Source: Candidatus Bathyarchaeota archaeon
GTDB taxonomy: Archaea > Thermoproteota > Bathyarchaeia > Bathyarchaeales > Bathycorpusculaceae
Direction of reading: 5' to 3'
Assembly: GCA_026014665.1 (NCBI GenBank)
Contig: JAOZHX010000019.1
Coordinates: forward strand, 124,001-188,000
DNA: 64,000 nucleotides
Shown here: piece by piece, positions 10,255 through 54,664 of the stretch
How positions within the stretch are numbered: position 1 is the stretch's first letter
Layout of the letters: each line of letters opens with the position of its first letter
The notes under the pieces: model-generated
What the model saw: only the letters and a program-made list of their open reading frames with translations
The model's database searches: none
What the model was told of the DNA's origin: nothing
Position numbers and translations under genes: made by a program

Positions 10255-10760
10255 TAGACTTTGGGGTTTTAGCAATCGAAGGAGTACCTCTAAAAAGGCT
10301 GCTAAAATCAACCACCAAAGCGATCGATAATCTTCCAAACTCAATAGAAAAAACCGACGTTGGAAGGCAGAGATTTGACTTCAGCAAAATAACAGCGTTA
10401 ATCATCAAAGCTTATACTAAAAAAAGATTTACCGAGACACCAAAGTCTACCTCAACGACAACAAATAAACCCTCAAGAATTCAACCCAAAAGTACCCGAC
10501 CACAAAATAATAGAGAACAATGACCTACCACCCAGAACCATACCTAAAAGAACTCAACCAAACCGTTGGGCTCTTTTTAAAAAACGAGAACGATGCGCTA
10601 TAACGTACGCTAGCTGAAGAAAACGCAAACCAGGCACGCAAGATGCCCCCATCATGATTGGATTAAACTCCACGCAGCCGTAACAACGATAAAAAACTAT
10701 TCCCAGCATGGAAGTCACAGATGCCAACGCCCATGACTCTATAGAATTTTAAAGCCTGCA
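10255..10760 (+). pseudogene. Decayed DDE (IS4/IS5-like) transposase relic
   Basis: Between the flippase and the next membrane protein, no intact gene is present. On the plus strand, frame pieces read DWIKLHAAV at 10655 and, one frameshift later, EVTDANAHDSIEF at 10711. Together they match the K-L-H-A-A-V ... E-V-T-D-x-x-x-H-D-S core around the second catalytic Asp region of IS5-type transposases. Upstream, an open piece with SIEKTDVGRQRFDFSK and IIKAYTKK could be the N-terminal region, broken by stops. No terminal inverted repeats or target duplication were found by eye. It is clearly dead. Confidence 0.6.
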
Positions 10761-10793
10761 TAATGCGAGCACATCTCTAATTAAGAAAAAAGT

Positions 10794-12920: not shown

Positions 12921-13029
12921 AGCCTACTCACATAATCATCTAATTATCGATTTGCGTACTCTCATGGGAAATTTTGTTTGTTCACTACTGTTTCATATGT
13001 ATTAAGCTCTAATCTTGCGGATCTATAGG

Positions 13030-14895: not shown

Positions 14896-14927
14896 GTTTC
14901 CACTCTCAAGAAATGCAGGTACATACC

Positions 14928-15602: not shown

Positions 15603-15639
15603 CTACTGATCCCATTGATTATGTTAAACATTTTTTCAT

Positions 15640-16629: not shown

Positions 16630-16659
16630 GTCACGTCCAAGACTTAAATAATCATTAAT

Positions 16660-17811: not shown

Positions 17812-17851
17812 AACGTTTCACTACAAAAAATTTGAGAATCGCCATTTTGGT

Positions 17852-20800: not shown

Positions 20801-21742
20801 GTTAACTATGCCTCGAACCATAACATAAAATGCCAAAACATAAAAGAAGTTTATAAAAGCATAAACCATCCAACCGTTAAGAGATGGAAAACCAGTTAAC
20901 TCAAATACAGACAGATAATGAAGAGAGAACCAAGTTTCAGCATGTAAGTAAGAAAGATGAGAAGAAGAAAGCAAATCACCTTTTGAAACATGTAGAAATG
21001 TATAATAATGTTCCCACATGTCGCCAGTTGAACCCAATTTATAACTTGAATAGTAAGTTAACCAACCAACAACAAAAAATAAGAGAACACATATCAAAAT
21101 CAGATAGTCTAATCGATAACATTTTGAGGATACTGATTGTATATTCGTTAGCTTTCTCGTCTTTAATGTTTCCAGTAGAAGCCCTATGAAAATTAATAGG
21201 TTGAAGCCAACAGTAACCCAATAGATATTCACAGTTGGTACATTTAAAATAATCAGGATATAAGAAAAAATTGCCATTGTGAAAACACTTACAAAAAAAG
21301 AGAGAACAAGCAAAACTAGCCCTCTATAGTTTCGCTTTCTATCTATGAGTCTAAGTAAACCATAACCCGGCAGAATACATGACAAAAACAAACCTGCCAA
21401 CAAGCGAATATAATTGAACATAGGAATAGACAACCAACTCATAAATTGTCCATCTGAAGCAAAAGGAACCAACAGAACAATCAAAATAGAAAGAGCATAT
21501 GCTATAAGGACAAGAAAGTCCCAATTTAGCTTGAAACCAAATTTATTCCAATTATTAAACAAATTGGCTGATTCATCTGCATCCTGTTGAGTTAAAAAGA
21601 AAACTAGGAATGCAAGTGCGCCGAGTACTATTGAAAAAAGGAAACGCAAGGGCATTTTGGATATTACCGAAATTGCAATCGTAACTATCAACGCTGTCAG
21701 CGCTCCTAATGTGTAAAAAATTAATTTTCCAGTAACTTTCAT
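17852..21742 (-). CDS. Very large membrane protein: GT-C-like core plus long extracellular beta-rich domain
   Basis: 1296 residues. Residues 1-690 hold some 17 hydrophobic segments; the first large outside loop has GSTGDMWEHYYTF, an Asp/Glu motif of GT-C type. Then comes an extracytoplasmic region: residues 700-820 with LDFLRANAPAGSTVLG, about 840-1030 with a ThuA/GATase-like strand order (GGHLIVLDSDGLGDFART), and about 1040-1260 of short repeated beta strands (LILNGNGTINGLSI, GTLTIENITI) with many N-x-S/T sites. It ends with a single membrane helix and KKVKFP. The repeats suggest a small beta-solenoid. Sugar transfer or sugar binding at the surface is inferred; no named family recognised. 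Confidence 0.75.
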   Translation of the reverse strand: MKVTGKLIFYTLGALTALIVTIAISVISKMPLRFLFSIVLGALAFLVFFLTQQDADESANLFNNWNKFGFKLNWDFLVLIAYALSILIVLLVPFASDGQFMSWLSIPMFNYIRLLAGLFLSCILPGYGLLRLIDRKRNYRGLVLLVLSFFVSVFTMAIFSYILIILNVPTVNIYWVTVGFNLLIFIGLLLETLKTRKLTNIQSVSSKCYRLDYLILICVLLFFVVGWLTYYSSYKLGSTGDMWEHYYTFLHVSKGDLLSSSHLSYLHAETWFSLHYLSVFELTGFPSLNGWMVYAFINFFYVLAFYVMVRGIVNDKHPRVPVIAMLIATLFAGFGWIVALSLGSQNSWVTALDTAGSYTYNDIISSFIYGPIPQYFSLSVLFVLIYLMVRQESFSFITGFLTAILVAQGLLVHSPEIIFFVLFFFCFIVCSNRENLGKLKWFSLSLLLGLFLVFLIGLPFLNNFYFSMDLILPYLFVVVCASFILIYFKQRTAISLKISRKIVLFFLCFVWFAYFLSFIVWQSTLSLNVTANLVDVGLKPWYIYPINSGLSLLLGLLGITYIVVNRSLLPNTKFLIISLIALFIAGLALSYININFPASTTYWEKRLYYSFMIIPLSIFGAHFVNNLLAKLRFSTNKLRKPFLNLFVCFLISLIIVSGVGSNVLALDYISIKSQSDPYANFSNAQLQALDFLRANAPAGSTVLGLSTISNRLAYTFSGMNHIRSVYWFTISPSLQFVDIINPELALKMLYSLNITYFFATKCEINALHSNGYVAGHLIKYLPIIFQNSEVIIYQVPKMNPPSSDSNLSLAIPSYMFKALDASSIGDFDTTTFYFPISMLAESGIDYSIKITEDNSIFNSKYIILPSDKNWTAEQITDYLTWVNNGGHLIVLDSDGLGDFARTLSVACNSNVTLYANSIVSSSGTTKINPLSIPFFASSDENIKIISTYNNDNNNSTPLALSKQVGKGEIIYFFIDSLFKALEEDKNASDFTKLGGIFCQLGLQTTDFTDVLFEKRWMYMFYSTIWIRDCISLQGSVKIESPSILPFNQFGVSKLILNGNGTINGLSIKQSTIEGVTIDNFNYKGKVQFMVDSGNISIIPTNYSSYGVLLLKSNFNATIQITEGSSVDLSVAANNQTFSINLESGTLTIENITIANYAIETSDAKFNFSTNVPRFDEILLFMRDATFSVDGNSTFFNAYFPNYIQPVHDSQVQIIGRTHFNFNCSSNNVILLTNLTYSGRFSVPQLTKLSMLYWELTAIPWENLLSSSIIIILFVVFASMIIPTLLRKKVKFPFIDS

Positions 21743-21797
21743 CTATTCAACCAGTCTATGATGGAGTTAAACCGTTAGATTGTGCAATTGTCAATTG

Positions 21798-22985
21798 CTA
21801 ATTTAACTCATTAATATCTTTGCAGATTGCGCTTAGAAAATCCTTAGAAAGCTGATTCCTATCAAAGTGTTTTTCGATTAGAATCCTAGCTTTTTTGCCA
21901 GCGTTTATTCTAAATTCTTTATCATTGTAAATCTTTGCTATAACCATAGCAAGCCCAATTTCATCCAAAGGGTTTGTACATAAGCCAATTTCATTTTCGC
22001 GTATTAACTTTGTTAATATTGAGTTATCGTATGAGGTTGTAATAACTGGTAATCCACAAGAACAATATTCATAAAACTTTGCTGGAAGGGAATTGCGCCA
22101 GAGAGGATTATCATCATATGGAATTATACCAACATGACAGTTAGACATTATTTCGGAAAGTCTTTTTTTATCGCATATTTCGCCGATATATTCTATATTA
22201 TTAGAAATGCCCAATAGAGCAGCTAAATCTAATATCTCTTTTACTTCACCTGAGCCAGCAATGATGAGTTTAATATTTATATCTCCCTCATCCACCAAAT
22301 GTTTAATGGATCTCAAAACTACATCTAACCTGTAATAGCCTCCAATATCGCCTGAATAAAATAGTTTGAAAAAGGTCGCATCTTTTTCACTGAGCGATGG
22401 TTTAAAAGTTTCTGTATCAGCGCCGTTCGTAACTAGTTCCACCTTACCTCTGCATCTCCTTCTCAATACAAATGCGGTATTCGTGGTTACCGTTACTATT
22501 AATTTAGACTTATCATATAGATAAGTCGCAATTTTTTTTATTTTATAAAAGACAGATGAAATTACGCTATTGCTTGATAGAGATATTATGTAATCTTCCC
22601 ACTCGTCTCTGTAATCAACCGCATATGATACCTTGAGTAAGTTGCAAGCTATCATTGATCCTAACCCAGTATTCCCCATAGGAACTGAGATTATTGCAAC
22701 GGATGGCCTCCTAGCGAGCAAAAAATAAGTTGAAGAAATGAACGAAAAAACGGCATTAAGTAAGAAAAATTTTGGGGAATCGGCACCTATACTCGGTATG
22801 CAATTGAAAATGTTGACTTGACCGACCTTTAAGTGTCCTCGTCTGCTAAAGGTTTTATTGCAAAAAGCACCTAAAATATCAACGGAATACCCCAATTTCG
22901 ACCAGCTGTCGGCGAAAAAACCTACACGCGCCCAGGCAGCACCTATGAAGGGATTAGTAAATCCTAGAACTATAAGGATTCTCAG
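21798..22985 (-). CDS. Glycosyltransferase family 4, probable CTG start
   Basis: GT-B glycosyltransferase. The C-terminal nucleotide-sugar half is clear: LFYSGDIGGYYRLD, IAGSGEV, IEYIGEI, then GIIPYDDNPLWRNSLPAKFYEYCSCGLPVITT. A TTG at 22895 would cut off the first Rossmann strand. The frame continues upstream as RILIVLGFTNPFIGAAWAR, the expected N terminus, up to a stop, with no ATG, GTG or TTG. CTG at 22983-22985 lies eight bases after GAAAGGG (22994-23000), so I extend to it, giving 395 residues. A frameshift or sequence error is the alternative. The 43-base gap to the upstream GT gene fits an operon. Confidence 0.83.
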   Translation of the reverse strand: MRILIVLGFTNPFIGAAWARVGFFADSWSKLGYSVDILGAFCNKTFSRRGHLKVGQVNIFNCIPSIGADSPKFFLLNAVFSFISSTYFLLARRPSVAIISVPMGNTGLGSMIACNLLKVSYAVDYRDEWEDYIISLSSNSVISSVFYKIKKIATYLYDKSKLIVTVTTNTAFVLRRRCRGKVELVTNGADTETFKPSLSEKDATFFKLFYSGDIGGYYRLDVVLRSIKHLVDEGDINIKLIIAGSGEVKEILDLAALLGISNNIEYIGEICDKKRLSEIMSNCHVGIIPYDDNPLWRNSLPAKFYEYCSCGLPVITTSYDNSILTKLIRENEIGLCTNPLDEIGLAMVIAKIYNDKEFRINAGKKARILIEKHFDRNQLSKDFLSAICKDINELN

Positions 22986-23028
22986 AAACGAAACCCTTTC
23001 AAAGATATATCAAGTTAATAGCGATTTG

Positions 23029-24321
23029 TTAACTTTGCAGTAAGTTACTGTACTGTTTATCTTTCGAAAGAATAGTGAGGTAGGTATTTCGCTCAATTTC
23101 AGAAACAAAATGCCAGCTATGTTGTTTTGCATATTCCCTCGCAACGTCGGAAAGTTCCTTAAGCAATTTTTCATTAGAAATTAATTCTACTAATATCATG
23201 GCAGAGTTTTTCACATCGCGAACATTTACAATGCAAACAGATTTGCAATCACCGTAAGCATTCAAAATACCTGGAAGACCATATGTGACAACAGGAAGAC
23301 CACAAGCTAATGCCTCACCGATAATTAATGGCCAAACATCTTTCATTGTAGGGTAAAGAAATACTTTTGCACGATTCATTTCATTCCATAATTTGAACTG
23401 CGGCAACCCTCTCAAAGGGTCGCATAAAAGAAATATATTTTTTTTAATATTTAAATTTTGAATAAGTTTATCAAATTCTTCAAATACATCAGGATTTTCA
23501 TAATAAACTACTCCAGCGATAGCCAGTTTCGCATCAGGAAGACGATCAACCACCGCACGCCATATTTTCGCAACTTCAAAAATCCCTTTCTGTGGGCTAA
23601 AATTGCCAGTTGCGTAAATAGCATCAAATTCTCTTGGAAAATCACTGGTTAATGAGACTATCTCCGTGTAATTTATTCCATTCCCTATACAGGTTGAAGC
23701 GATTTGTTTTTTCAGACCTATTTTTGAAATCGCCTCAGCAACAACCGAGCTGAGACAAAGTATATTAGCCGACGGAGATTCAAGCACTTTAAATGAAAGA
23801 TACCAAACAAAGGCTTCTAATATCGCTCTAAAATTCGACCTTTTAATACCTCTCAGAGATGTATAAAGTTCCTTATAAGATATAGCTTCTCTCTTTAAAC
23901 TTACATTCTGCACACCTACCGAGCCATAATACGGAATAGTATTCATAAAGACAGCGAATTTTCTAGCGGTAATCTTTGAAGCTACATACGACAAAATAGT
24001 TGCTTGTGGGTCTTCCGTCGGGCTCAGAATCAGGTTTATATTATTTTTTTTAATTTTTTTCAAAGCTCTGATTATTGAAAAAAGCATGGAAAAAAAAAAT
24101 TCAAGTATACCCAGAGTTACTGGAACAGGTAATTCATTTTTAAATTCAACAAAATGATACGCAATCTTTTCCCTATTGGCAGTTGCCAACACCTTTTGGA
24201 AACGAAGCCATCCTCCAGCCCCTTTTCCACTTGATGCCAAATTATTAAAACTTGATGGCACAAATGCTAATACAATTAATTTTCGTGCCGCACTTTCTAG
24301 ATCATCTGACGAATTTTTTAT
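23029..24321 (-). CDS. Glycosyltransferase family 4, non-standard start
   Basis: GT-B glycosyltransferase of about 430 residues. C-terminal half: IYATGNFSPQKGIFEVAKIW, LAIAGVVYYENPDVFEEF, and KVFLYPTMKDVWPLIIGEALACGLPVVTYGLPG, with the E-x7-E-like motif of GT4. A GTG at 24261 would begin inside the first beta strand; upstream the frame reads ARKLIVLAFVPSSFNN and stays open to a TAA, with no ATG/GTG/TTG. AAGGAG at 24332-24337 is ten bases before an ATA (24321) and one base before a CTG (24330), so ATA is my choice with low certainty about the exact codon. It transfers a sugar to the lipid-linked glycan; sugar unknown. Confidence 0.83.
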   Translation of the reverse strand: MKNSSDDLESAARKLIVLAFVPSSFNNLASSGKGAGGWLRFQKVLATANREKIAYHFVEFKNELPVPVTLGILEFFFSMLFSIIRALKKIKKNNINLILSPTEDPQATILSYVASKITARKFAVFMNTIPYYGSVGVQNVSLKREAISYKELYTSLRGIKRSNFRAILEAFVWYLSFKVLESPSANILCLSSVVAEAISKIGLKKQIASTCIGNGINYTEIVSLTSDFPREFDAIYATGNFSPQKGIFEVAKIWRAVVDRLPDAKLAIAGVVYYENPDVFEEFDKLIQNLNIKKNIFLLCDPLRGLPQFKLWNEMNRAKVFLYPTMKDVWPLIIGEALACGLPVVTYGLPGILNAYGDCKSVCIVNVRDVKNSAMILVELISNEKLLKELSDVAREYAKQHSWHFVSEIERNTYLTILSKDKQYSNLLQS

Positions 24322-24345
24322 TGGCTTCAGTCTCCTTAAGCTTAG

Positions 24346-25410
24346 TCAACCATAAGATCGTTGTGAGCAGTTTGTCATGTGAAATCTTTGAATTTGTGAA
24401 TATTCATTTATCATTTCTTGTAAAGACGCAAAAAAAGAAGAAGTAAATAATATGCTATAAGGTTTGGTTTTATTAGTTCGGATCTCAGATCGCTTATGCA
24501 GTATCGATCTTAAATTTTTTAAGATCCAAATGTGAGCCTGGAAAATAGCTTTAACTTCATTTCTCCTTCTCCGTTTAATTGAAGATATAAAGATAAAAAT
24601 ATAGTATATCAATGAAAGGATAATTCCTTGAATGACATGCTTCAAGTCGTAATTCTTTAAAATATTCATATACGAGTTCTTCGCGGCATGGAAAACCATA
24701 GAAGTTGATACTCTGCTTCCCCACCCACCGGTCCCACCACCGACGTGATAAAAAACAGATGCAGGAGCATAGATTACTTGATAACCATACAGCCAAGTTC
24801 TTAAACCAAAATCGGTATCTTCAAGTGAGGTAAAATAGGCTTCATCAAACTTTCCTATAGATTCGAAAACATCTTTCTTAATTAACATACTTGCACCATA
24901 TGGTTGAATAATAAATTTGGGTTTAGTATAATACTTATCATCTTTCCGACCAAAATTTATGCAAAAGCCCCTACCGATAAAGGTTGCCTTTGAGCCACCG
25001 TGGTCAATTATTTCTGGTTTATCAATAAATAAAGACTTGCTTGTCACCACTGCATTAGGAAAACTTAATGCAACCTTAATTAGTTCTGTGAGCCAATTTT
25101 TGTCGACGAGCACGTCATTATTGAGAAAAACAATATACTCCCCTGTAGCTATTTTTACGCCATTATTATTTCCACCCGTAAAACCATAATTTTGATCCAA
25201 GGGAAGAAGTTTAACCCATGAATAATTCTTTCTAACATAATCAACTGAGCCATCGGAAGAAAAATTATCAACCAAAATAATTTCTAGCATGTTTTTGGGA
25301 TAATCGATTTTATCTAAGGAAGTAAGGCAACCATCAAGATACTTTTTACCATTATAATTAAGTATAATTACGCTAACGCTAGGAAGAGAGTAATTTTCTG
25401 TCTTAACCAT
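24346..25410 (-). CDS. Glycosyltransferase family 2 (rhamnosyltransferase-like)
   Basis: 354 residues with GT-A fold: SVIILNYNGKKYLDGCLTSL, ILVDNFSSDGSVDYV, NYGFTGGNNNGV, FLNNDVLVDKNWL (DxD-like metal site), GASMLIKKDVFESIGKFDEAYF and TSLEDTDFGLRTWLYGYQ. This matches the WbbL/rhamnosyltransferase subgroup. After residue 265 there is one hydrophobic segment (IILSLIYYIFIFISS) and a basic tail, probably a membrane-surface anchor. The start (ATG at 25410) overlaps the upstream GT4 stop by eight bases. The donor cannot be read from the sequence. Confidence 0.9.
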   Translation of the reverse strand: MVKTENYSLPSVSVIILNYNGKKYLDGCLTSLDKIDYPKNMLEIILVDNFSSDGSVDYVRKNYSWVKLLPLDQNYGFTGGNNNGVKIATGEYIVFLNNDVLVDKNWLTELIKVALSFPNAVVTSKSLFIDKPEIIDHGGSKATFIGRGFCINFGRKDDKYYTKPKFIIQPYGASMLIKKDVFESIGKFDEAYFTSLEDTDFGLRTWLYGYQVIYAPASVFYHVGGGTGGWGSRVSTSMVFHAAKNSYMNILKNYDLKHVIQGIILSLIYYIFIFISSIKRRRRNEVKAIFQAHIWILKNLRSILHKRSEIRTNKTKPYSILFTSSFFASLQEMINEYSQIQRFHMTNCSQRSYG

Positions 25411-26614
25411 CTGGTAAGTTCCTAAAGAGTGATCTCATTTTCAAACCTATAGCGTTGATTGAAGCGCTTATTTCCACAAATTTCTGTCCATTCGAACCCA
25501 TTAGTCTACATAGTTTTTGATTCTCTTTTAAACAGAATACAGCTTGGGCTAGAGCTTGAAAATCACCAGGATTTACTGTCAACCCTGAACTGGTTTCTAT
25601 TACGTAATGTGAAGGCAATCCTTGACTACATGAAATTATGGGTTTTCCCACAGCTTGATATTCATATAGCTTGGACGACATGCCACGATAAGGCGTTTTA
25701 AAATCTGCAAGCGGCAAAATCAGCACGTCCGCTTGACTCAAGAACTCGCTTACTGCCTCACGGGGTAGCAGTTTATCGATAATCTGCACATTTTTCAATT
25801 TCAATTCTTTTACTCTCGATTGCATAGAGCCTAAGAGTTCGCCTTTTCCCTGAATAATAAACTCGACATCGCTATTTGATTCTTGAATTATTTTTGCTGC
25901 TTGGAAGACTTGTTCAAAATCGTAAGCAATTGAGAAGCCGCCTGAGTACATAACCACAAATTTGCCGCTGTTACCGCGTTTAGGATAAGGTTTGAAGACT
26001 TCAAGATCCACGCCGCCCCTGACTACTTGGATCATGCGTCTGTTGACGCCATAGCGCGCTATGGTTTCGACATATCCAGGGCTGATTGGTGTGGCTGCTT
26101 TGACCTTTGAGAATAAGAATCTGGCGAAAAACTCTGCAAGTTTTGATGTTGCTGAGCCTCGTTTCACAAGGTTTAAGTCGTATAGGTCTTCGATTATTAG
26201 GTCGTCAACGTTTGAGACGACGGGTTTTCTTTTTATGCCGCCGTACGCGATTGCTGGAATGAGCACGAATATGTCTGGGTTTGCTGCCCAAATTACGTCA
26301 ATATTTCCAACGAGAAGGAGAGCAAACATTGATGAAACGATGAAAGAGGTGAAAATGAAGAGCCTTCTTAAAATTCCCTTTGATTCTAAGGGCAGTATCC
26401 AAGTGCGGATAATCCTAATTTTTCCAGCGTACTCGACCTTCAGCGGTTTGGAGTGGTATTCTTTGGGGATTTTTCCTGTTGGATAATGTGGAAAAGCCGT
26501 GACTACTGTGACGTTGCAGTTGTTTATGGAGAGGCCTTTTGCAACGTTGCTTGCTCGGGTTGCTGCGCCGCCGAGGTCGGGTGGGAAGTATTCGCCTATT
26601 ATGAGAACGTTCAA
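25403..26614 (-). CDS. Glycosyltransferase family 4 (WbuB-like)
   Basis: 403 residues, full GT-B enzyme. N terminus: MNVLIIGEYFPPDLGGAATR, with the donor/acceptor loop GGAATRA. A hydrophobic stretch near residue 90 (LFIFTSFIVSSMFALLLVG) suggests membrane association. The C-terminal half includes VMYSGGFSIAYDFEQV, FIIQGKGELL, VSEFLSQADVLILPLADF and SKLYEYQAVGKPIISCSQG. This layout is typical of WbuB/fucosaminyl- or N-acetylhexosaminyl-transferases of O-antigen loci. ATG at 26614 follows the upstream stop by six bases. Donor sugar not determined. Confidence 0.9.
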   Translation of the reverse strand: MNVLIIGEYFPPDLGGAATRASNVAKGLSINNCNVTVVTAFPHYPTGKIPKEYHSKPLKVEYAGKIRIIRTWILPLESKGILRRLFIFTSFIVSSMFALLLVGNIDVIWAANPDIFVLIPAIAYGGIKRKPVVSNVDDLIIEDLYDLNLVKRGSATSKLAEFFARFLFSKVKAATPISPGYVETIARYGVNRRMIQVVRGGVDLEVFKPYPKRGNSGKFVVMYSGGFSIAYDFEQVFQAAKIIQESNSDVEFIIQGKGELLGSMQSRVKELKLKNVQIIDKLLPREAVSEFLSQADVLILPLADFKTPYRGMSSKLYEYQAVGKPIISCSQGLPSHYVIETSSGLTVNPGDFQALAQAVFCLKENQKLCRLMGSNGQKFVEISASINAIGLKMRSLFRNLPDG

Positions 26615-26620
26615 GTTTTT

Positions 26621-28684
26621 TCAGGGTATCTTGTAGCGTTTAGGTGCTGAATTGATTACTTCTATGGCTTTGTTCATGTCGAAATCAATTGCTTGCCCGT
26701 ACCATTCGATTGATTTGAAGCGTGGTTTGTTTTCTTCCTTGACTATTTCGTAAGCTTCTTCCCTTGTAAGTTTGCCTTCGCGGATTTGATGGCTTCTGAA
26801 AATGTCAAATTCGGTGAATCCTGCCATTGTCATGTAAATGTAGTTGTAGAAGGCGGCTGTGCCGTCGTCTGTGCGCCATGTTGCTATCGTGTCGGTTTCT
26901 CTCTCCCAATTGAACTTCTCGGTTATCGTGTTTAGGACTGTTTTTTCGTCCCACTCAAGGTAGTGGAAAAGGTAGAGGTAGTCATCGGGCAAAACGTAAG
27001 AGGAGTAGTAAGCGAAGAGAGTATCAAACATTGACTTGTTAATGTACGCGGGGTTTTTAATGAACTGCTTGAAGTAGTACCACATCATTTTCAACTTGTT
27101 TTTGGTAGAGATACCTGTCATCCTCTTTAGCGCATTTTTTGTTCCTTGCGTGGTGACATTACAAAAGCCATACTTGAATAGGCCTGTGCCTTCTTCGCCT
27201 TCGTAGCCACCGCAGAAAATGAACAACTTGATACCGGTTTGCTTGCGAACCTTGTGGAAGTAGTAATAAAACTGTTTGTCGCCTGCCATGAGGATCGGTA
27301 CCATGCCTAAATCAGGTTTTTTCAGCCATGCTTTGAGGTTTTTGCGGATGTTAGCTCGTTTGGTTCGGATATCAGCCGAGATAACTATGTGTTCGATTCC
27401 CAATTTGCCGACGACGCGGGCTTGGTTTCTGCGTGCAAGGTCATTTACCATGCCCCAGTCATAAGTGAATGTTATGGGGTGCAACTTTAAAGTGTTCTTT
27501 ATGTAGTCTAATCCAAAGGCGCTGTCTCTTCCGCCGCTAAAGCCTATTAGAACGTCAGGTTCGCCTGTGCTGCTCCTGTATGGTGCTATAAATTCTGTTA
27601 GAGCTTTTTCGCCTTTCAGGTAGTTGCCTCTGGTTTCATAGTCCCTGCAGTAACTGCACACGCCTTGCGCGTCAAAACTGATAAATGGCATGGTTTCAGG
27701 TAGCAGGCAACGTGTGCATCTTCTGAGCACATTCTCGTCTTTGTAGAGGGCTTCCCAATTTTGCAGCATGGATTGTTTGATGTCTTCATGCAAGAGGTAT
27801 TGGCTCATATCAGGTGGCGGCTGCGCGGTTGTGTCGTAGAGTTCATAGATTTTGATTTTATTTTTCAATGGAGCACTGCTTGTGTTGTCAACCGATTGGT
27901 CATTTAATGTGAACAGGTGTTTTTGGGACAGGTTAAGGTCTATTAGGTAGCCTTGCCCCGCCTTTACCTGCGTTATTGGGCTTTCTGCAAACAGATCTTT
28001 TAGATGCTGATTGCCTAGTGCCTGTTGGAGGATGTATTTTTCAGAGGCGAAAACAAGGATTTTCGGATTTTGGCTGAGAGCCATGTAGAGTGAGCCCGTG
28101 TTCGATGCAAGCACGAGGTTGTTTAAGTCGTCGAACTGGATGGCAACAGAAGCGGATCCCTCGATTTGTTCAAAAACAAGTTTGACAGCTTCAATTAATG
28201 GTTTGCCTTGTGATCGGTACATCTGTAGAAGGCTTAAGAATACTTCGGTGTCTACGTCATACATCTTTTTGAGATTTGGAAAGGCAGTCCAAAGTTTATG
28301 GTCGTTGACGATGATTCCGTTGTGGATTCCAACAGCACCATCTTTGACGACTGGTTGATTGTTTGTGTTGATTTCGCTTTGCCCGTTGGTTTGCAAGCGG
28401 GAGTGACCAAGGATTAAAAGTGGCGCTGTTAGTTGGAGACCATCCCATCCTGTATCATGTAATGTCTTTTCAAATAATTCCTTGTATTTGGGGGTCTTGA
28501 CTAGGCGTGATGAAGTTATTGGCTCTTTATAGACGTAGATTTTTTCGTTGAATCTAATGGCTAAGCCCGATGCTTCTTTGCCTCGGGATTCTGACAGCTT
28601 AAATATACTATTTATGATTTGCATAAGCTCTTTTGGAGAGAGCTTTAAGTTTTCACCGATTGCTATCCCAAATATTCCGCACAA
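26621..28684 (-). CDS. Class II glutaminase fused to WbpG/PseA-type N-acetyl sugar amidotransferase
   Basis: 687 residues, two enzymes in one chain. Residues 1-290: Ntn glutaminase (MCGIFGIA with catalytic Cys2, LGHSRLQTNGQSEINTNNQP, GIHNGIIVND), closest to GlmS/PurF-type domains. About 335-365: a four-cysteine knuckle, CTRCLLPETMP then CSYCRDYE. About 370-600: PP-loop ATPase with IGFSGGRDSAFGLDYI and FTYDWGMVNDLARRNQ, matching sugar amidotransferases (WbpG, PseA). Bacterial WbpG-like enzymes receive ammonia from a separate HisH-like class I glutaminase; here a class II domain replaces it. Product would be an acetamidino sugar. The reaction is inferred from the families. Confidence 0.86.
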   Translation of the reverse strand: MCGIFGIAIGENLKLSPKELMQIINSIFKLSESRGKEASGLAIRFNEKIYVYKEPITSSRLVKTPKYKELFEKTLHDTGWDGLQLTAPLLILGHSRLQTNGQSEINTNNQPVVKDGAVGIHNGIIVNDHKLWTAFPNLKKMYDVDTEVFLSLLQMYRSQGKPLIEAVKLVFEQIEGSASVAIQFDDLNNLVLASNTGSLYMALSQNPKILVFASEKYILQQALGNQHLKDLFAESPITQVKAGQGYLIDLNLSQKHLFTLNDQSVDNTSSAPLKNKIKIYELYDTTAQPPPDMSQYLLHEDIKQSMLQNWEALYKDENVLRRCTRCLLPETMPFISFDAQGVCSYCRDYETRGNYLKGEKALTEFIAPYRSSTGEPDVLIGFSGGRDSAFGLDYIKNTLKLHPITFTYDWGMVNDLARRNQARVVGKLGIEHIVISADIRTKRANIRKNLKAWLKKPDLGMVPILMAGDKQFYYYFHKVRKQTGIKLFIFCGGYEGEEGTGLFKYGFCNVTTQGTKNALKRMTGISTKNKLKMMWYYFKQFIKNPAYINKSMFDTLFAYYSSYVLPDDYLYLFHYLEWDEKTVLNTITEKFNWERETDTIATWRTDDGTAAFYNYIYMTMAGFTEFDIFRSHQIREGKLTREEAYEIVKEENKPRFKSIEWYGQAIDFDMNKAIEVINSAPKRYKIP

Positions 28685-28701
28685 GATTTTTACTCAAAAT
28701 T

Positions 28702-29706
28702 TTAGTTTTTATATGAAGCGCTAATGTTTTTCCAGTTTGCCTTGAACCAAGCATTAACCTGTTTTAGTCCTTCTTTGAAATCCATGTTAGGATTGTATCC
28801 GAGGATTTTCTTGGCTTTGTTTATTGATGCTAACAACCTGTTTTTTTTGTCCCAATCGCGTCTGTCAGCATACACTATTCCAGCGGGATTGCCCGTGATT
28901 TCGTTGATCCATTTTGCCAAATCGCCTATGCGAATTTCTCTTCCAGTTGCCAGATTGAATGCTTCCCCTATCGCTTCTTTATAGTATGCCATCGCTAGCA
29001 ATCCATTGATGATGTCTCCGACGTATGTGAAATCTCTTGTCTCATCGCCAGTGCCAGTAATTGGTAGTGGTTGCTTGTTAATCGACCAGTAGAAGAAGTT
29101 AGGTATGACGTTTCGATATTTGCCTGGAACTTCTCCAGGGCCGTATGAGTTAAAGAATCTCGCATTCACAATTGGAAGATGATAAAGGTTATAGTAATAG
29201 TTAGTGTAAAGTTCACCAAGCATCTTTGTTACCTGATAGGGTGTATACAGCTTCATGGACACATCGTGCTCTTCAAAGGGCATTTTTGAACCAGCACCAT
29301 ATATCCCGCAACCTGATGAGGCATAGATGAAGCGTTCAACACCGACTAAATGGGCATACTCTAATACCTTTAAGGTTCCCATTCCATTAACCATTAGGTC
29401 AGTTTCTGGGTTATCTACGGAATTTTGGTTTGCGAAATGAGCTGCCAAATGATAGACTATTTGTGGTCTATTTCTAAATGCCCACTTGAGCTTTTCATCG
29501 TCAAGAATATTACCTTTTATAAAGAGAACCTTTGGGCTAACAGGCATATTCCATTCATAAGATGACGATAAGTCGTCTAAGATGACAATCTTTTCAGTTT
29601 CAAGTTTTTCCAGAGTTGCCACTAGATTGGAGCCAATGGCACCAGCGCCTCCAGTTACCAGAATAGTTTTGCCGTTGAAGGCTTCAAGCACTTTTTCATC
29701 CATCAA
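28702..29706 (-). CDS. NAD-dependent nucleotide-sugar epimerase/dehydratase (extended SDR)
   Basis: 334 residues. NAD-binding TGGAGAIGSNL lies near residue 18, then ILDDLSSS and YHLAAHF. SSGCGIYGAGSKMPF carries the conserved catalytic Ser region; YQVTK (catalytic Tyr and Lys) is near 157, and RFFNSYGPGE follows. The C-terminal ARREIRIGDL-like helix region reads EAFNLATGREIRIGDL. It resembles GDP-mannose 4,6-dehydratase-like or UDP-GlcA-type enzymes of O-antigen loci. Its start overlaps the next-upstream epimerase stop by four bases, so both are made together and may act in sequence. Exact substrate is unknown. Confidence 0.88.
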   Translation of the reverse strand: MMDEKVLEAFNGKTILVTGGAGAIGSNLVATLEKLETEKIVILDDLSSSYEWNMPVSPKVLFIKGNILDDEKLKWAFRNRPQIVYHLAAHFANQNSVDNPETDLMVNGMGTLKVLEYAHLVGVERFIYASSGCGIYGAGSKMPFEEHDVSMKLYTPYQVTKMLGELYTNYYYNLYHLPIVNARFFNSYGPGEVPGKYRNVIPNFFYWSINKQPLPITGTGDETRDFTYVGDIINGLLAMAYYKEAIGEAFNLATGREIRIGDLAKWINEITGNPAGIVYADRRDWDKKNRLLASINKAKKILGYNPNMDFKEGLKQVNAWFKANWKNISASYKN

Positions 29707-30641
29707 AAATTCCTCTCAGACGCTTGAGGATCGTATAGCGTTTTGAACCATTCTACTGTTCTGCGCATGCCTTCCTCTGGATCGATTGTAAGCTTGAAAT
29801 TTAGGTCTTTTCTTGCTTTTGACGCGTCTGGAGTTTTAATGCGAGTTGTAAATGGCTCGCCTTCCTTGTAAATCACTTTTGAGTCATCTTTGTTTAGATT
29901 TCTAAGTATTAAGTCCGAGACATATTTGATATCATACTGGGTTTCCCCGCCGAAATTGTATACTTCGCCAGGTTTGAAGTTGTCAATTATGTTGACAAAT
30001 GCCCGGCATAGGTCATCGACGTATTCAAGGGTTCGTTTATGCCCCAGATAAACGGTATATGGTTCATCATGCATAGCTTTGTAGATGAATTTGGGTATCC
30101 AACCTCTGTAAGGGGTGTAATGTTCGCCAACGCCATAGACATTGAACAAACGCATTCGAACTGTTTCAGTTCCAAACATAGCTTCCGAGTTTAGGATTTG
30201 CATTTCGTTGACCCATTTAGAGATGGCGTAGTCATTCATCTGTTTAATCGGAATAGTGTCCATAACTTCTTCACGCATGACACCATCGTAATCGCCGTAA
30301 ACCTCAGCACTTCCAAAAAAAATCATGCGAAATTTTTTCTTTTCCTGCATCCTAAGTATGTTCTTTGTGCCGATGGCATTGGTTTGCCATAGATTTTCGT
30401 AGTAGTCTTCACCATTCCACCTGCCATATTCAGCCGCGGCGTGGTATACGTAATCGAAGTTGTGTTCAGTAAACAAGCGCTCAACTTGACTAAATTTACT
30501 TACATCACAGCGAACGTAATTTTGCTGATGTGAGTGCATTAGATCGCAAGCCCAAGCTTCATACCCGCGCGTTTGCAGTTCGCGGATTAAATTTGAACCT
30601 ATGAAACCCAAACCGCCAGTAACTAGCACCCTTTTGCTAAT
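29703..30641 (-). CDS. NAD-dependent nucleotide-sugar epimerase/dehydratase, probable ATT start
   Basis: About 312 residues. Sequence marks: SKRVLVTGGLGFIGSNLI (NAD site), YHAAAEYGRW, FFGSAEVYGDYDG (Ser), MNDYAISKWVNEM (Tyr/Lys), RLFNVYGVGEHYTPYRG. An in-frame ATG at 30692 would overlap the upstream GT2 gene by 56 bases and add an atypical Cys-rich leader. An ATT at 30639-30641, overlapping the upstream TAG, lies seven bases after AGAGAGGG (30649-30656) and gives the expected MSKRVLVTGG. A GTG three codons later is the other choice. The tandem with the neighbouring epimerase suggests a two-step sugar conversion. Confidence 0.86.
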   Translation of the reverse strand: MSKRVLVTGGLGFIGSNLIRELQTRGYEAWACDLMHSHQQNYVRCDVSKFSQVERLFTEHNFDYVYHAAAEYGRWNGEDYYENLWQTNAIGTKNILRMQEKKKFRMIFFGSAEVYGDYDGVMREEVMDTIPIKQMNDYAISKWVNEMQILNSEAMFGTETVRMRLFNVYGVGEHYTPYRGWIPKFIYKAMHDEPYTVYLGHKRTLEYVDDLCRAFVNIIDNFKPGEVYNFGGETQYDIKYVSDLILRNLNKDDSKVIYKEGEPFTTRIKTPDASKARKDLNFKLTIDPEEGMRRTVEWFKTLYDPQASERNF

Positions 30642-31581
30642 ACGCGTTCCCTCTCTGCATACTAAACCGTTCAGACATTCGCAATATCGCATACAATGTG
30701 ATGGCTGTCGACAATAAGAAAAAGCCGATAAGAATGAAGCTAACCGACGCTAACGCAATGTTTGTTTCAATTGAATGAACGGTAGCGTAAATCTGTAGCA
30801 TCCATAGGCCGAAACCAACACCGGCTAGCAGGCATAATAGGCTTGGAATCCCCAGCATGAGAAGCGGTCTTTCTTCTACAACAAGCCTGACTAATGACCA
30901 AATTACACCTATGCCATGGGTTAGAGGGTGTTCAGTTGAGGTAGAAACATCGCCATTCTTATATTTGCAGGTGCTTGGTACCTCAACGATGCGAAGGTCA
31001 CTCTTACTGGCTTTAAGTAAAATTTCAACGCTAGCACCCATTCCATTTTCTGAAAAGTTTAGCAGATTTAGTGCTTGGTAACTGTATGCTCTAAAACCAC
31101 TCTGGGCATCAGTCACGCCGTTTTTTGCTGAACCATTGACCATTTTTGTGATCAGTTTAGCACCTATTTGCCTGTACAAGGGCATTTCTGCGGTTCCACG
31201 TTCGCCGACAAAGCGGCTGCCGATGACGATGTCTGCAGCTCCGTCGAGAATTGGTTTTATAACATATGGGATCTCGTTGGGTGCATGCTGGCCATCAGCG
31301 TCTAGAGTGACAAAGATATCAGCTCTCAACTCATGTGCACGCATAAAGAGACTTCTGATGGAAGCGCCGTAACCCCCGTTCTTCTCATGGCAAATCACTT
31401 CTGCACCTAAACCTGCTGCAATTTCAGCTGTATAATCGGTGGAACCGTCATCACAGACTATAACTTGGCTGGCGAACTGTTTAGCTTCCAAAATGACTCG
31501 AGCGATAGTTTGCTCTTCGTTAAACGCTGGAATGCCTACTACAATGAAAGGTTTTGTATGAGGTGCTGTCTTGATCTCCAC
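30637..31581 (-). CDS. GT2 dolichol-phosphate sugar synthase-like (Dpm1/AglJ-type) with two membrane helices
   Basis: 314 residues. GT-A domain: FIVVGIPAFNEEQTIARVI, VIVCDDGSTDYTAEIA, EKNGGYGASIRSL, FVTLDADGQHAPNEIP (DAD metal site), VIGSRFVGERG and DAQSGFRAYSYQAL. Two hydrophobic segments, about 230-255 and 265-290, make a membrane hairpin at the C terminus. The family transfers a sugar from a nucleotide donor to dolichyl phosphate on the inner face; AglJ-like members add the first sugar of an N-glycan. Start is GTG at 31581. It would supply donor lipids to the GT-C proteins of this locus. The sugar is unknown. Confidence 0.88.
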   Translation of the reverse strand: MEIKTAPHTKPFIVVGIPAFNEEQTIARVILEAKQFASQVIVCDDGSTDYTAEIAAGLGAEVICHEKNGGYGASIRSLFMRAHELRADIFVTLDADGQHAPNEIPYVIKPILDGAADIVIGSRFVGERGTAEMPLYRQIGAKLITKMVNGSAKNGVTDAQSGFRAYSYQALNLLNFSENGMGASVEILLKASKSDLRIVEVPSTCKYKNGDVSTSTEHPLTHGIGVIWSLVRLVVEERPLLMLGIPSLLCLLAGVGFGLWMLQIYATVHSIETNIALASVSFILIGFFLLSTAITLYAILRMSERFSMQRGNAY

Positions 31582-31721
31582 TGCCTCTATTTGTATCGCT
31601 TATTCCTCCGTTCTGGCAAGGGGTAGGTTTTTTATCTTCGTATTGTTAGGTGCGAATTAAAAAGGCTATCGCAATATTCGGTTTTTTAGGTCTCATATTA
31701 GCGATAATTACGTTCCATCTA

Positions 31722-32663
31722 TTAGGTGGAAGCCATTCTTTGCTTGAGCAAATCCCGTAATCCGTCTGGTAAAGAAACTTTGGGCTTGTAACCTAGGAGC
31801 TTTTTTGCCTTGGAGATATCTGCATAGCTGTCTTTGATATCTCCTGTTCGAGGACTTTCATAGATAACCTCTAAGTCTGTACCTGTCAATTCTAACAGCG
31901 TCTTAGCTAATTCATTGATCGACGTGGGCTTACCAGAGGCAATGTTGAAAACTTCCCCCTCGCCTGCCCTACTCCTTACTGAAGCCAAAACTGCTTCTGC
32001 AACGTCCATGACGTTGACGAAATCTCTGGTTTGTGAGCCGTCTCCATAAATTATCAAAGGTTTTTTTTGTATGCAACGTTCTATGAACCGTGTTATGACT
32101 CCGCTATAATCATTCATAGTTTGCCTAAGACCGTATACGTTGAAAAAACGTAAAATAATAGTTTTCAAAAGCAATCGGTCACTAAAACCGAAGCAGTACC
32201 GTTCGCCTATGAGCTTGGATTCTGCATAGGTGGAAATGGGGTTGGTTGGAGTTTGTTCTGTAACTGGCAACATTTCAGGGTTGCCGCAGACTGCACAGGT
32301 GGAGATATAAATGAATTTGTCAATTTGGTTTTTGACGCTGGCTCGAAGCAAGTTTAGAGTTCCTAGTAGGTTTATATCGAAGGTGAGGTTTGGATTTTCT
32401 ATGGATAGAGGAACACTGACCAAAGCAGCCATATGAATAATTACATCTACATCTTTTACGCTTTTTTCGACTGCTAAGGTGTCACGTATGTCGCCCTTGA
32501 TGAGTTCCGCTTTTCCCTTAGTTATATGCTTTTGAATATTTTCTGTTTTTCCTGTAGATAAGTTGTCGAAGATTCTGACGTCGTATTCGTTATCTACCAA
32601 TCGGTCAACTACGTGACTTCCGATGAAGCCAGCGCCTCCGGTGACTAAGATTTTTGTTGGCAT
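31722..32663 (-). CDS. UDP-glucose/UDP-GlcNAc 4-epimerase-like (GalE/WbpP family)
   Basis: 313 residues. ILVTGGAGFIGSHVVDRL (NAD), IFDNLSTGKTENI, HMAALVSVPLSIENP, ISTCAVCGNPEMLPVTE, YAESKLIGE (catalytic Tyr/Lys), LRFFNVYGLRQ, and YGDGSQTRDFVNVMDVAEA. The usual catalytic SS(A/S) segment is STCAVCG here, with Thr next to Ser. Of the three epimerase-like genes, this one is closest to archaeal GalE/WbpP enzymes. It would provide UDP-Gal or UDP-GalNAc. Spaced about 140 bases from the downstream GT2 gene, so a promoter could lie between them. Confidence 0.9.
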   Translation of the reverse strand: MPTKILVTGGAGFIGSHVVDRLVDNEYDVRIFDNLSTGKTENIQKHITKGKAELIKGDIRDTLAVEKSVKDVDVIIHMAALVSVPLSIENPNLTFDINLLGTLNLLRASVKNQIDKFIYISTCAVCGNPEMLPVTEQTPTNPISTYAESKLIGERYCFGFSDRLLLKTIILRFFNVYGLRQTMNDYSGVITRFIERCIQKKPLIIYGDGSQTRDFVNVMDVAEAVLASVRSRAGEGEVFNIASGKPTSINELAKTLLELTGTDLEVIYESPRTGDIKDSYADISKAKKLLGYKPKVSLPDGLRDLLKQRMAST

Positions 32664-32693
32664 GAATTAAGTTTCTTGCTGAGTTTTCATGGG

Positions 32694-33056
32694 TTATCTG
32701 TTGATATGCATTATTGATAAGAAGAATGCAAACGATGTGTCGGTAGCCCATTTTTTTGCTGTGCTGTTGCCCCAGCTTGTGGCTATTGAACTTAATTTTT
32801 CGGCGAGCGGGCGACCGATTGTTTTTATTGTTTTCTGCATACTGCTCTCTAGTATCCCCTCCAACTTACTCACCACGGCAAGAATACTTTTAGCTAAATG
32901 TGAACTACGTATGTTTTCAGTCACTGTTATCGTCAAATCTACAAGCACCCTATCGATTCTAGGCAAAGACTTGAACCAAACGCCTGCACGTATGGCTTTG
33001 ATCTTCAGCTTTTTCAGATCATTTCTATTAAGTGGGAAAGGAGAGCTCTTTTGCAA
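32694..33056 (-). CDS. Small basic helical protein of unknown function
   Basis: 120 residues, TTG start at 33056. The translation is basic and helical: RNDLKKLKIKAIRAGVWFKSLPRIDRVLVDLTI, then TVTENIRSSHLAKSILAVVSKLEGILES. I have the impression that this segment (K-x-L-K-I-K-A-x-R-x-G-V-W-F) recurs in archaeal hypothetical proteins, but cannot check it. The opposite-strand frame at 32689-33078 is longer by a few codons but reads as low-complexity and lacks a ribosome site. The gene sits in the right strand and spacing for the glycan operon, yet its composition does not suggest an enzyme. No transmembrane segment or metal site is visible. Confidence 0.5.
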   Translation of the reverse strand: MQKSSPFPLNRNDLKKLKIKAIRAGVWFKSLPRIDRVLVDLTITVTENIRSSHLAKSILAVVSKLEGILESSMQKTIKTIGRPLAEKLSSIATSWGNSTAKKWATDTSFAFFLSIMHINR

Positions 33057-33178
33057 TGCAGCCAGTAGCCACCATTAATTCGGTTGAACTGACCATTATT
33101 CGTATAATCCTAAAAAAGATTTTCGGTTTTCACGGTAAAATAATTAAAGCTGCAAGCCGAGGAACTAGCATGCAAGTG

Positions 33179-34273
33179 TTAAAATGCATGGTAAATATGC
33201 GAAACGATTTTGCCAATTGTAGAAATGTCTAGGCTAGGATAAATTGGCAGACACAAGATGCGATCTGCAATTTGCCTCGCATTAATAAGCCCGTATTTTT
33301 TAGTCAGATCTTCGCCAGTTTTTTTGAAGTAATTGAAATCAACTGTCAGGGGAAAGAAATACTTTCTGGGCTTAATTCCATTGGCGATAAGTTGTGAGTA
33401 GGCTGCATCTCGTTGGGTTCGGGTTTCGAACAGGACGGGCATGTAGCTATAGTTGTATTTTGAAGCTACGATCTTCTGGAAAGTCACGGGTGAACCAGAT
33501 AGACGTTCAACATAATGCTCGTATAGAGCCTTTCTTGATGCAATAGATTTGTTGACTGATTCAAGGTTGCATAAGCCCATGGCTGCTTGGAACTCGTTCA
33601 TTTTAGCATTTATCCCGGGAAGAACGACTTCAGTTTCTGATCTGATGCCGTGGTTTCTCATGAGTTTTAACTTATCCACAATTGCGCTATCTCTCGCAAC
33701 GATTGCGCCTCCTTCGATTGTGTTAAATACTTTTGTAGCATGAAAACTGAGGATCGAAGCATCGCCAAATGAAGCAATCGGCTTAACTGCGTATTCGACT
33801 CCGAAGGCGTGGGCAGCATCATAAATTAGCCTAAGGTTATACCTTCGAGCAATTGTTTGCAATTCTTCTATATAGCAAGGATTTCCATAAACGTGCACAG
33901 CAAGTATTGCAGTTGTTTTGTCCGCGATTTTTTCTTCCACGGCTTTAGGGTCGATATTGTAGGTTTCTGGATTTATGTCGGCAAACACCGGTGTTAAGCC
34001 TTCCCATACGAGCGCATTTGTCGTTGCTGCAAAGGTGAATGGGGTAGTTATGACTTCTCCTTTTATTTCCATAGCTCTTAGAGTTAGCTGCAATGCCAAA
34101 GTACCGTTGGAGGTTAAGACAACGTTTTGGACACCCAAGTACTCTTCTAGCTTTTTTTCCAATAACTGTACGAGTTCGCCGTCGTTTGTGAGCCAATTAT
34201 TTGACCAAATCTTTTTCAAATATTCGATATAAAGCTCTAAATTAGGTAAATCTGACTTTGTAACATTTATCAT
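33179..34273 (-). CDS. DegT/DnrJ/EryC1-family sugar aminotransferase
   Basis: 364-residue PLP enzyme that aminates a keto nucleotide sugar using Glu or Gln. N terminus: YLKKIWSNNWLTNDGELVQLLEKKLEEYLGVQNVVLTSNGTLAL; then ITTPFTFAATTNALVWEG, INPETYNIDP, YDAAHAFGVEY, and SFHATKVFNTIEGGAIV, where the HATK lysine binds PLP. FRMNEFQ-type active-site segment is NAKMNEFQAAMGL. Normal family length. The NeuD/PglD-like acyltransferase lies immediately upstream, so an amination then N-acetylation (as PglE-PglD make diacetamido sugars) is likely, though the dispersed 178-bp element sits between the two. Confidence 0.92.
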   Translation of the reverse strand: MINVTKSDLPNLELYIEYLKKIWSNNWLTNDGELVQLLEKKLEEYLGVQNVVLTSNGTLALQLTLRAMEIKGEVITTPFTFAATTNALVWEGLTPVFADINPETYNIDPKAVEEKIADKTTAILAVHVYGNPCYIEELQTIARRYNLRLIYDAAHAFGVEYAVKPIASFGDASILSFHATKVFNTIEGGAIVARDSAIVDKLKLMRNHGIRSETEVVLPGINAKMNEFQAAMGLCNLESVNKSIASRKALYEHYVERLSGSPVTFQKIVASKYNYSYMPVLFETRTQRDAAYSQLIANGIKPRKYFFPLTVDFNYFKKTGEDLTKKYGLINARQIADRILCLPIYPSLDISTIGKIVSHIYHAF

Positions 34274-34349
34274 AGAGCAAGTCGCTTCAATTAAGCTGTA
34301 AACAAGAGCTTTAAAAGATTTGTGCAGTAGTTCGTCTTGGTCGCTTTTG

Positions 34350-34527
34350 GGTCTTTATGTGGGTGTGGAGGTTTTGTGGTTGCCACATAGTGGTTTGTTG
34401 TTGTGGTTGTTTTTTGGTTTTGGTTTGTTTTTCTTTTTGTGTTTACGTGTGGGATAAGTGTTTTTCTGCACATGCCCAACATGACTCCATGTTGAAAATA
34501 CTACGGTGTGGATGTGAAAGCATGTTG
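34350..34527 (-). repeat. Dispersed 178-bp non-coding element, copy B
   Basis: Read on the minus strand, this copy starts CAACATGCTTTCACATCC and ends CCACATAAAGACC. It matches copy A (54375-54552) closely over exactly 178 bases, including the perfect seven-base hairpin CAACATG/CATGTTG with loop GAGT and the TGTGGCAACCACA hairpin. It lies in the 361-base gap between the aminotransferase start and the acyltransferase stop, where most neighbours are a few bases apart; the rest of the gap shows nothing else. Confidence 0.88.
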
Positions 34528-34634
34528 ACGGTATCTAAGATTGGCACATCGAAAAGGGAGGAAAATTCGCTAAGAAAAAACAATCAAACAAGCAATAAAG
34601 AGCTTGAGCTGAGCATTCATTTAAGGAGAGTTAT

Positions 34635-54169: not shown

Positions 54170-54374
54170 CCTGACTTTTTACTTAGCGAATAGGTGTATT
54201 CGACTTCTTTTCAAACAAGAACCAACATACAGCTGAACCAGCACTCCATAAACATGCTAAAACAAATCTTGGCTCACCATAATGCTACTTCACCAACTCA
54301 GTTTGGGGGCTGGTGGATCTGCTTTGTGGAGCATGCTAAGCTATCAATGTGCCTTGTGAAAAATTAAACGGTCT

Positions 54375-54552
54375 CAACATGCTTCCACACCCACACCGCA
54401 GTACTTTCAACATGGAGTCATGTTGGGCATGTGCAGAAAAACACTTATCCCACACGTAAACACAAAAAGAAAAACAAACCAAAACCAAAAAGCAACCGCA
54501 CCCCCAAGCCATCTTGTGGCAACCACAAAACCTCCACACCCACACAAAGACC
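54375..54552 (+). repeat. Dispersed 178-bp non-coding element, copy A (best preserved)
   Basis: Begins CAACATGCTTCCACACCC and ends CCACACAAAGACC. Contains the perfect hairpin CAACATG-GAGT-CATGTTG, then an AC-rich middle with almost no T, then the hairpin TTGTGG-CAA-CCACAA. Copies B and C have the same length of 178 bases. Differences between copies are spread over all codon positions, so it is not protein-coding. Confidence 0.9.
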
Positions 54553-54664
54553 AATATCTCTTAACAGAACCAACACCAGAAAACGAGACACAATTTCCAA
54601 CAGAATTTTGCCCTAATGAATACGGGAAGGGGTCTATCAAAGACCAACAATTCTGTCGAGCCGC

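Follow-up and report, generated by a model that had tools for sequence, protein, structure and literature searches.

A partly mobile, CCACA-rich intergenic element of about 176 nucleotides, dispersed in genomes of Bathyarchaeia and tentatively read as a protein-binding array

Introduction

Dispersed binding sites that serve chromosome partition have been described in the Sulfolobales, where SegB, the partner of SegA, binds tens of sites and bridges them into loops in vitro; in S. solfataricus there are 39 peaks and 46-49 sites, some near the partition genes, and the motifs are 13-bp palindromes mostly within genes (PMC12284271). This precedent makes the bridging of dispersed sites a possible mechanism in archaea. 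A second system, AspA-ParB-ParA of pNOB8, couples AspA to a ParA ATPase, and the same account lists the form of archaeal centromeres, clustered or dispersed, as an open question (PMC5120986). Two kinds of repeats are also relevant. Prokaryotic MITEs are short, multicopy and intergenic, with inverted ends that they have in common with transposase-bearing IS elements (PMC10969869). The REP/BIME repeats are abundant palindromes, arranged in regularly spaced composites with alternating orientation, and some are bound by host proteins (PMC2817692).

Here, we describe an intergenic element with a core of about 176 nt, first seen as three copies (A, B and C) in a window of 64,000 nt, that is, the whole stretch of DNA analyzed. 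The window belongs to a 2.37 Mb genome (G000), which we compare with other genomes of the genus, chiefly the relatives G006, G012, G018 and G029. Like the SegB sites, the cores are dispersed by the tens and some lie near partition-like genes; they differ in being CCACA arrays of about 176 nt, intergenic and partly mobile, and in adjoining an AspA/Sso10a-like operon. The operon resembles pNOB8 in that a winged-helix protein with weak similarity to AspA adjoins a ParA ATPase, whereas an Sso10a-like gene lies upstream and none of the three operon proteins examined matches ParB. With REPs the elements share abundance and alternating orientation, but they are not palindromic overall, and they pair over kilobases. 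With MITEs they share shortness, multiplicity and intergenic location, as well as, in G018 and G006, inverted ends, which in G018 are common to a transposase-bearing IS; unlike those MITEs, the core lies outside the IS, occurs with several flanks and keeps its length across species. Among the papers listed in literature searches, none was on this element family.

Results

The three copies in the window

As the initial annotation had claimed, the three copies (Table 1) align without gaps over 178 nt and share an AAAGACC end. Its relative dating of them has to be revised: core identities of 92.1% (B-C), 75.3% (A-C) and 72.5% (A-B) make B and C the close pair and A the divergent copy, rather than A and B close and C older. 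Likewise, the perfect CAACATG/CATGTTG hairpin assigned to A and B is found in B and C, not in A. The TGTGG-CAA-CCACA hairpin does occur in all three but does not characterize the family: the CCACA in it, at copy position 149 and thus column 150 of the alignment, falls outside the positions filled in at least 25 of 138 copies. All three copies lie between long genes, although A sits inside a 121-aa ORF (7379-7744, plus strand) that runs through it; this ORF has no Pfam match and is probably an artifact of the scarcity of stops on the A/C-rich strand.

Table 1. Coordinates of the element copies and associated features in the window
Feature	Position	Strand	Remarks
Core copy A	7531..7708	+	Profile match E 2e-39; divergent copy; type III upstream flank
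Core copy B	34350..34527	-	Profile match E 4e-43; type I upstream flank
Core copy C	54375..54552	+	Profile match E 1e-46; type II upstream flank; query of first genome search
Upstream flank of A, type III, GCTCTTATGAAGAAAAAAACAAACG	7506..7530	+	Similar flank in other G000 and G018 copies, by eye
Upstream flank of B, type I, AAGCTCTTTATTG...TTTCGATGTGCCAATCTTAG	34528..34605	-	Also in other G000 copies
Upstream flank of C, type II, TGCCTTGTGAAAAATTAAACGGTCT	54350..54374	+	Similar flank in other G000 copies, by eye
Downstream tail of C, like the tail of G018 units	54629..54650	+	2 mismatches; 0 expected from shuffles
5' CCACA-N-CCACA doublet in C, columns 12 and 18	54385..54395	+	85 and 65 of 138 copies
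CCACA in C, column 77	54450..54454	+	114 of 138 copies
TGTGG (inverted CCACA) in C, column 142	54515..54519	-	125 of 138 copies
3' CCACA-N-CCACA doublet in C, columns 161 and 167	54534..54544	+	79 and 108 of 138 copies
Block of 26.6 kb between convergent A and B	7709..34349		ORFs nearly all on the minus strand (simple ORF map)

The ends of the 178-nt alignment are not where homology stops, since it continues upstream, though into flanks that differ between copies; thus, those of B and C are distinct despite cores that are 92% identical. By eye, the flanks appear modular, with three upstream types and several downstream types combining with the core. The type I flank was picked up in 17 G000 copies by a loose pattern, not all of them true members, and in more by eye. 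Around copy A there is a 10-nt direct repeat, GCCCTCTCCA, at -119 and +38 (about 7409-7419 and 7746-7756), the second-best case in G000 after that of copy L028 (see below), with a score equal to that of the best mismatched pair, as chance could produce. Beyond A, B and C, the family profile found no further significant match in the window (next best E 0.47).

Copy number and distribution

The expectation that three copies in one window imply many in the genome was borne out by a sequence-only model built from 40 copies, which gave 84 matches in G000 at E<=0.01, some of them partial, with 150 of 995 candidates scored; the relatives gave 37 (G006), 13 (G012), 48 (G018) and 35 (G029). The family thus extends to related genomes, being present at E<=1e-8 in 11 of the 32 genomes of the genus, the window's own included, with a patchy distribution of 1 to 78 matches per genome at this threshold. 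Under stricter filters, with 13 candidates scored in the genomes listed, the family was present in 12 of the 201 genomes sampled from the class and in 2 of their 84 genera. The named element-bearing genomes (BE326-BA-RLH and fen_992) are Candidatus Bathyarchaeota; from these and from the riboflavin kinase-like protein of the window (see below), we assign the host to Bathyarchaeia. The element was not matched in collections of viruses, plasmids and phages, as judged from two exact patterns in viral contigs and blastn of copy C.

The copy numbers are probably lower bounds because assemblies break at the element, the core standing at the start or end of several contigs (L204, which is G013 C54; L199; L215; and G000 C27). 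Amplification has been mostly species-specific: the nearest relative lies in the same genome for 65 of 70 G000 copies. The alignment set comprises 156 distinct sequences of 164 matches, of which 138 are near-full-length. For the positional analyses below, we used 82 (neighbor distances) or 77 (pair permutation) of the 84 G000 matches, 36 of 37 in G006 and 47 of 48 in G018, leaving out the weakest, partial or contig-edge matches.

A core of nearly constant length with a CCACA array

The core measures about 174-178 nt, a nearly fixed length at about 20% divergence. In the multiple alignment, indels are rare throughout the three best-sampled genomes, with 45 of 70 near-full-length copies free of them in G000, 21 of 29 in G018 and 16 of 20 in G006, and the length is held even though such copies carry 30-40 substitutions on average. 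Flanking DNA proved an unreliable control: the upstream comparison mixed flank types, and the pairwise count (305 indels in the core, 336 in the flank) came from a method that we judged to over-insert gaps. We therefore rely on the multiple alignment of the core and on the spacing between the left inverted end (see below) and the core, which ranges from 51 to 94 nt across 13 units of G018 and G006. A minority form of 163-165 nt, shorter by 11-13 nt, comprises seven copies in two species (L128, L129 and L130 in G006; L137, L147, L148 and L150 in G018).

Columns that are conserved in other genomes show 4-12 times fewer differences between nearest copies than variable columns do (0.058 against 0.259, 0.040 against 0.228 and 0.026 against 0.324). 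This low divergence fits selection on individual copies and selection on many source copies alike. Further, CCACA or its complement TGTGG recurs at alignment columns 12, 18, 57 (inverted), 77, 142 (inverted), 161 and 167, each filled in 65-125 of 138 copies, and amounts to 5.47 occurrences per copy against 1.34 in dinucleotide shuffles. The seven-position array reads as a set of putative protein half-sites. The initial suggestion of a protein-binding site of fixed length is thus favored by the array, by the rarity of indels and by the convergent pairing described next, the binding itself being predicted from sequence.

Convergent pairing of neighboring copies

Among mapped copies of G000, G006 and G018, neighbors in plus-then-minus order lie a median of 7.3 kb apart (41 pairs) and those in minus-then-plus order 37 kb apart (36 pairs; Mann-Whitney p 8e-7). 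Of the 28 neighbors less than 8 kb apart, 21 are convergent, one is divergent and six are on the same strand, while permuted labels predict 7.0 convergent pairs and reach 21 in none of 20,000 trials; the convergent share is 8 of 12 in G000, 2 of 3 in G006 and 11 of 13 in G018. The pairing was noticed while looking at loci and is hence a post hoc finding. In the window, A and B form a wide convergent pair, 26.8 kb apart. The orientation of adjacent genes was considered as the cause and rejected, as the neighbors of 81 copies showed no clear bias (27/19/18/17); in this survey, a simple caller placed ORFs over 58 of 143 copies, and we take these to be spurious.

CTCF-type loop anchors of animals are orientation-dependent sites whose convergent pairs bracket a segment of DNA. 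The convergent arrangement found here is comparable by analogy.

Cross-genome pairs beside shared genes have the same arrangement in 36 cases, two of which count one copy twice, and the mirrored one in 35. Where sites match, the cores were not clearly more similar than random copies. With orientation near chance at shared genes, we claim conserved sites only beside the ParA operon.

An Sso10a-like/AspA-like/ParA operon beside the element

This operon encodes a winged-helix protein with HTH_45 that matches Sso10a-2 (E 4e-5), a second, TrmB-like winged-helix protein with a weak match to AspA of pNOB8 (E 0.007-0.013) and a ParA/MinD ATPase; a further gene (F3) lies 3' of parA in most genomes. In G000, G018 and G029, the operon lies between convergent copies, in G006 and G024 one copy lies some 20-25 nt past the parA reading frame, and in G012 and G022 one copy lies upstream, at 1.5 kb in the former and as a weaker match (E 5e-10 to 3e-9) in the latter. 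Thus, 7 of the 11 core-bearing genomes have a copy no more than 1.6 kb from the operon, against 0.41 expected at random. Assuming random, independent placement, P is 1.8e-9, and it would be 1.6e-7 for 6 of 11; the locus was chosen after looking at many, and the distance limit was set afterwards (the copy of G012 is at 1.5 kb). Shared descent could inflate this count. All 10 adjoining copies point their 3' end toward the operon. In 10 core-less genomes with the operon, the fetched flanks held no core-like match. Of the other core-bearing genomes, G015 has only a weak partial match at the operon (E 2e-4), and G008, G010 and G013 have no copy beside it.

The reverse relationship is looser. Matches to AspA occur in 27 of the 32 genomes and matches to ParA in 22, many of them without the element; the AspA-like/ParA system, therefore, does not need the element. 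Hence, while the family resembles parS or SegB sites in lying near partition-like genes (the 7 of 11 above, a post hoc count) and in its numbers (up to 84 matches per genome), genes and sites do not regularly occur together, and on that account, with binding predicted, we do not class the element as a member of either. The Sso10a-like gene follows the cores more closely, being present in all 11 genomes with cores and in 5 of the 21 without (Fisher 3.4e-5, uncorrected for phylogeny), a co-occurrence that may only follow phylogeny. Separately, the genomes G017, G022 and G003 (3.2-3.5 Mb) have 9-19 Sso10a-like winged-helix matches and few or no cores.

Discussion

A proposed dispersed, orientation-dependent binding array

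We tentatively favor, at somewhat less than an even chance, the view that the elements are mobile, orientation-dependent protein-binding arrays, perhaps SegB- or parS-like, that would serve as anchors for chromosome looping or partition. In this view, IS transposases would have carried a non-coding core about the genomes of Bathyarchaeia, in part at least as MITE cargo. A dimeric winged-helix protein, for which the Sso10a-like and AspA-like proteins encoded in the operon are plausible candidates, would bind the CCACA/TGTGG half-sites of the core and bridge the copies, with a preference for convergent pairs a few kb apart, and the bridged elements would act as dispersed anchors. Transposition would supply new anchors, among which selection would keep those of useful orientation and intact length, the latter being needed for the correct spacing of sites. 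The array model has its difficulties: DNA binding leaves the A/C richness of one strand unexplained, most copies lack recognized inverted ends, and outside the operon orientation at shared positions is not conserved. A more specific version, which we consider rather unlikely, holds that some 80 mobile 176-nt CCACA arrays in convergent pairs are the sites of the Sso10a/AspA/ParA products, and that their transposition rewires chromosome loops, which would make them the archaeal equivalent of convergent loop anchors.

If the binding-array model is true, it would show how, in archaea that are uncultured, the cargo of a transposon can turn into a site of chromosome architecture throughout the genome. 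If it is not, the family is still a MITE cargo kept at a fixed length across species. The family provides countable candidate sites, together with a candidate protein operon, for the question of the archaeal centromere.

Mobility and the MITE alternative

Mobility is most evident in the relatives. Units of about 254-305 nt with CAGTAGATCAAAA inverted repeats at their ends enclose the core in G018; both ends, with at most three mismatches each, flank 9 of 29 copies in G018, 4 of 20 in G006 and 1 of 11 in G029, and a reversed-motif control found none in G018 or G006. The same ends bound a 1,113-nt IS of G018 (C22:38857-39969; L171:1857-2970), which encodes a DDE_Tnp_1 transposase (PF01609, E 1e-11), and two further units of 174 and 177 nt (in L172 and L173). 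A partial homolog of this transposase (57% over 160 residues) was found in G012 and none in G006, G000 or G029. Equal 4-nt flanks, a possible sign of target-site duplication, occur at 7 of the 19 elements checked, where shuffles give 2.8 on average and reach seven in 39 of 5,000 cases; they are found at all three of the IS and core-less units, at 4 of 12 G018 core units and at none of four in G006.

In G000, by comparison, these ends flank none of 75 copies (nor any of nine in G012). General searches for inverted ends in G000 gave the same or nearly the same scores as mismatched partners did, and an end-motif search found five places, four of them beside cores, against seven for its control. 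One G000 copy, L028, has inverted ends of its own by eye (TGTCTCTT/AAGAGACA) and a 12-nt direct repeat. The proposal of a non-autonomous mobile element is accordingly supported for some of the copies of G018 and G006; for the window, mobility is inferred from these relatives. As to the element being merely part of a longer IS, the G018 IS has the same ends as some core units but no core.

These data make an ordinary MITE family a serious contender, albeit an unlikely one on balance: the copies would be decaying and non-autonomous, with no host function, and the core would be an old transposon interior. The inverted ends of G018 and G006 with the matching IS in G018, the excess of equal 4-nt flanks, the patchy distribution and the mostly species-specific amplification all agree with it, and for the 9 of 29 G018 copies the ends are indeed shared with a transposase-bearing IS. 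Against it, the core is absent from that IS and from both the 174- and 177-nt units, so that other interiors exist between the same ends. Nor does the core behave as an unconstrained interior, given that its length is constant, that it has conserved columns and that its motifs keep their positions, all the more as the distance from the left end varies. Moreover, the convergent excess is not expected of neutral insertions and is left unexplained by the neutral models that we considered. The chief rival to the binding-array model is a MITE family whose length constraint and pairing would have some other cause.

Composite units, inversion or local hopping as possible explanations

In another reading, which we regard as improbable, pairs in inverted orientation would mobilize or invert the genes they enclose, or new copies would land near one another in a preferred orientation. 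The convergent pairs themselves speak for it, as does the near-identity of some convergent partners in G018 (100% and 93%). In one instance, a G018 pair separated by 3.4 kb is 100% identical in the core and has in common the right-hand inverted repeat and, on the left, the DNA as far as it was fetched. Divergent neighbors can be near-identical too (98.8% at 31.6 kb); near-identical neighbors indicate that local transposition or gene conversion does occur. Against this reading, of 16 close neighbors of less than 80% identity in G000 and G018, 11 are still convergent (one is divergent and four are on the same strand). Inversion, by reasoning, is symmetrical between inverted copies and would give no preference for convergent over divergent pairs. 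Partners can have different flanks, and two of the enclosed blocks hold what seem to be a purine-synthesis and an FtsZ-like gene, in ORFs read by eye.

RNA and coding readings

A family of small RNAs, A/C-rich or, from the other strand, G/U-rich, had been suggested from the window copies and now appears decidedly improbable. The strand asymmetry (A+C 59-69%), the conservation of linear motifs and an orientation relative to neighboring genes that lacks clear bias are in its favor. Yet stems tested on 138 copies are paired about as often as independent columns predict, RNAalifold on 40 copies returned one 5-pair stem without compensatory change, the strongest covarying columns are mostly close neighbors and Rfam gave no match.

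An ATG frame with a CxxC peptide, visible in many copies and with a motif recognizable across species, was convincing at first through the recurrence of CxxC and was set aside after stop and codon tests. Of 97 ungapped copies, 48 have this frame open, as do 18 of 21 in G018; changed codons show a mild conservative excess (per changed codon, 0.35 BLOSUM units in G000, 0.06 in G018 and 0.40 in G006), and pN/pS is 0.75 within G000 and 0.64 between genome consensus sequences, whose differences fall on the three codon positions as 101/86/121. However, stops in this frame are not depleted (78 against 83.1 expected from independent columns) and many copies have them at common sites, no common stop codon follows the motif, column-shuffled pN/pS is 0.91+-0.12 and goes down to 0.62, an antisense frame does as well (0.66 and 0.55) and several conserved codons are conserved at the third position too. 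Genes or pseudogenes for a 58-residue CxxC peptide (MLPHPH..NMEPCxACGEK...HTHIK) are, on these grounds, hardly tenable. The early remark that differences do not respect codons is largely upheld by the undepleted stops, with the qualification of the mild conservative bias in the ATG frame. Given the stop count, the weak codon tests and the lack of stem compensation, we treat the element as non-coding and without a supported RNA fold.

Other genes of the window

Several predicted proteins encoded around the three copies can be recorded in their own right. Within the A-B block, 17852-21742 (minus strand) has a weak DUF4350-like match below the cut-off of that family, and beyond B, 36568-39309 (minus) matches GT-C_AftD. 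A predicted matrixin-like metalloprotease (PF00413, E 8e-12) is encoded at 47501-48433 (plus). The window also encodes a protein like the CTP-dependent riboflavin kinase, which we take to be an archaeal marker.
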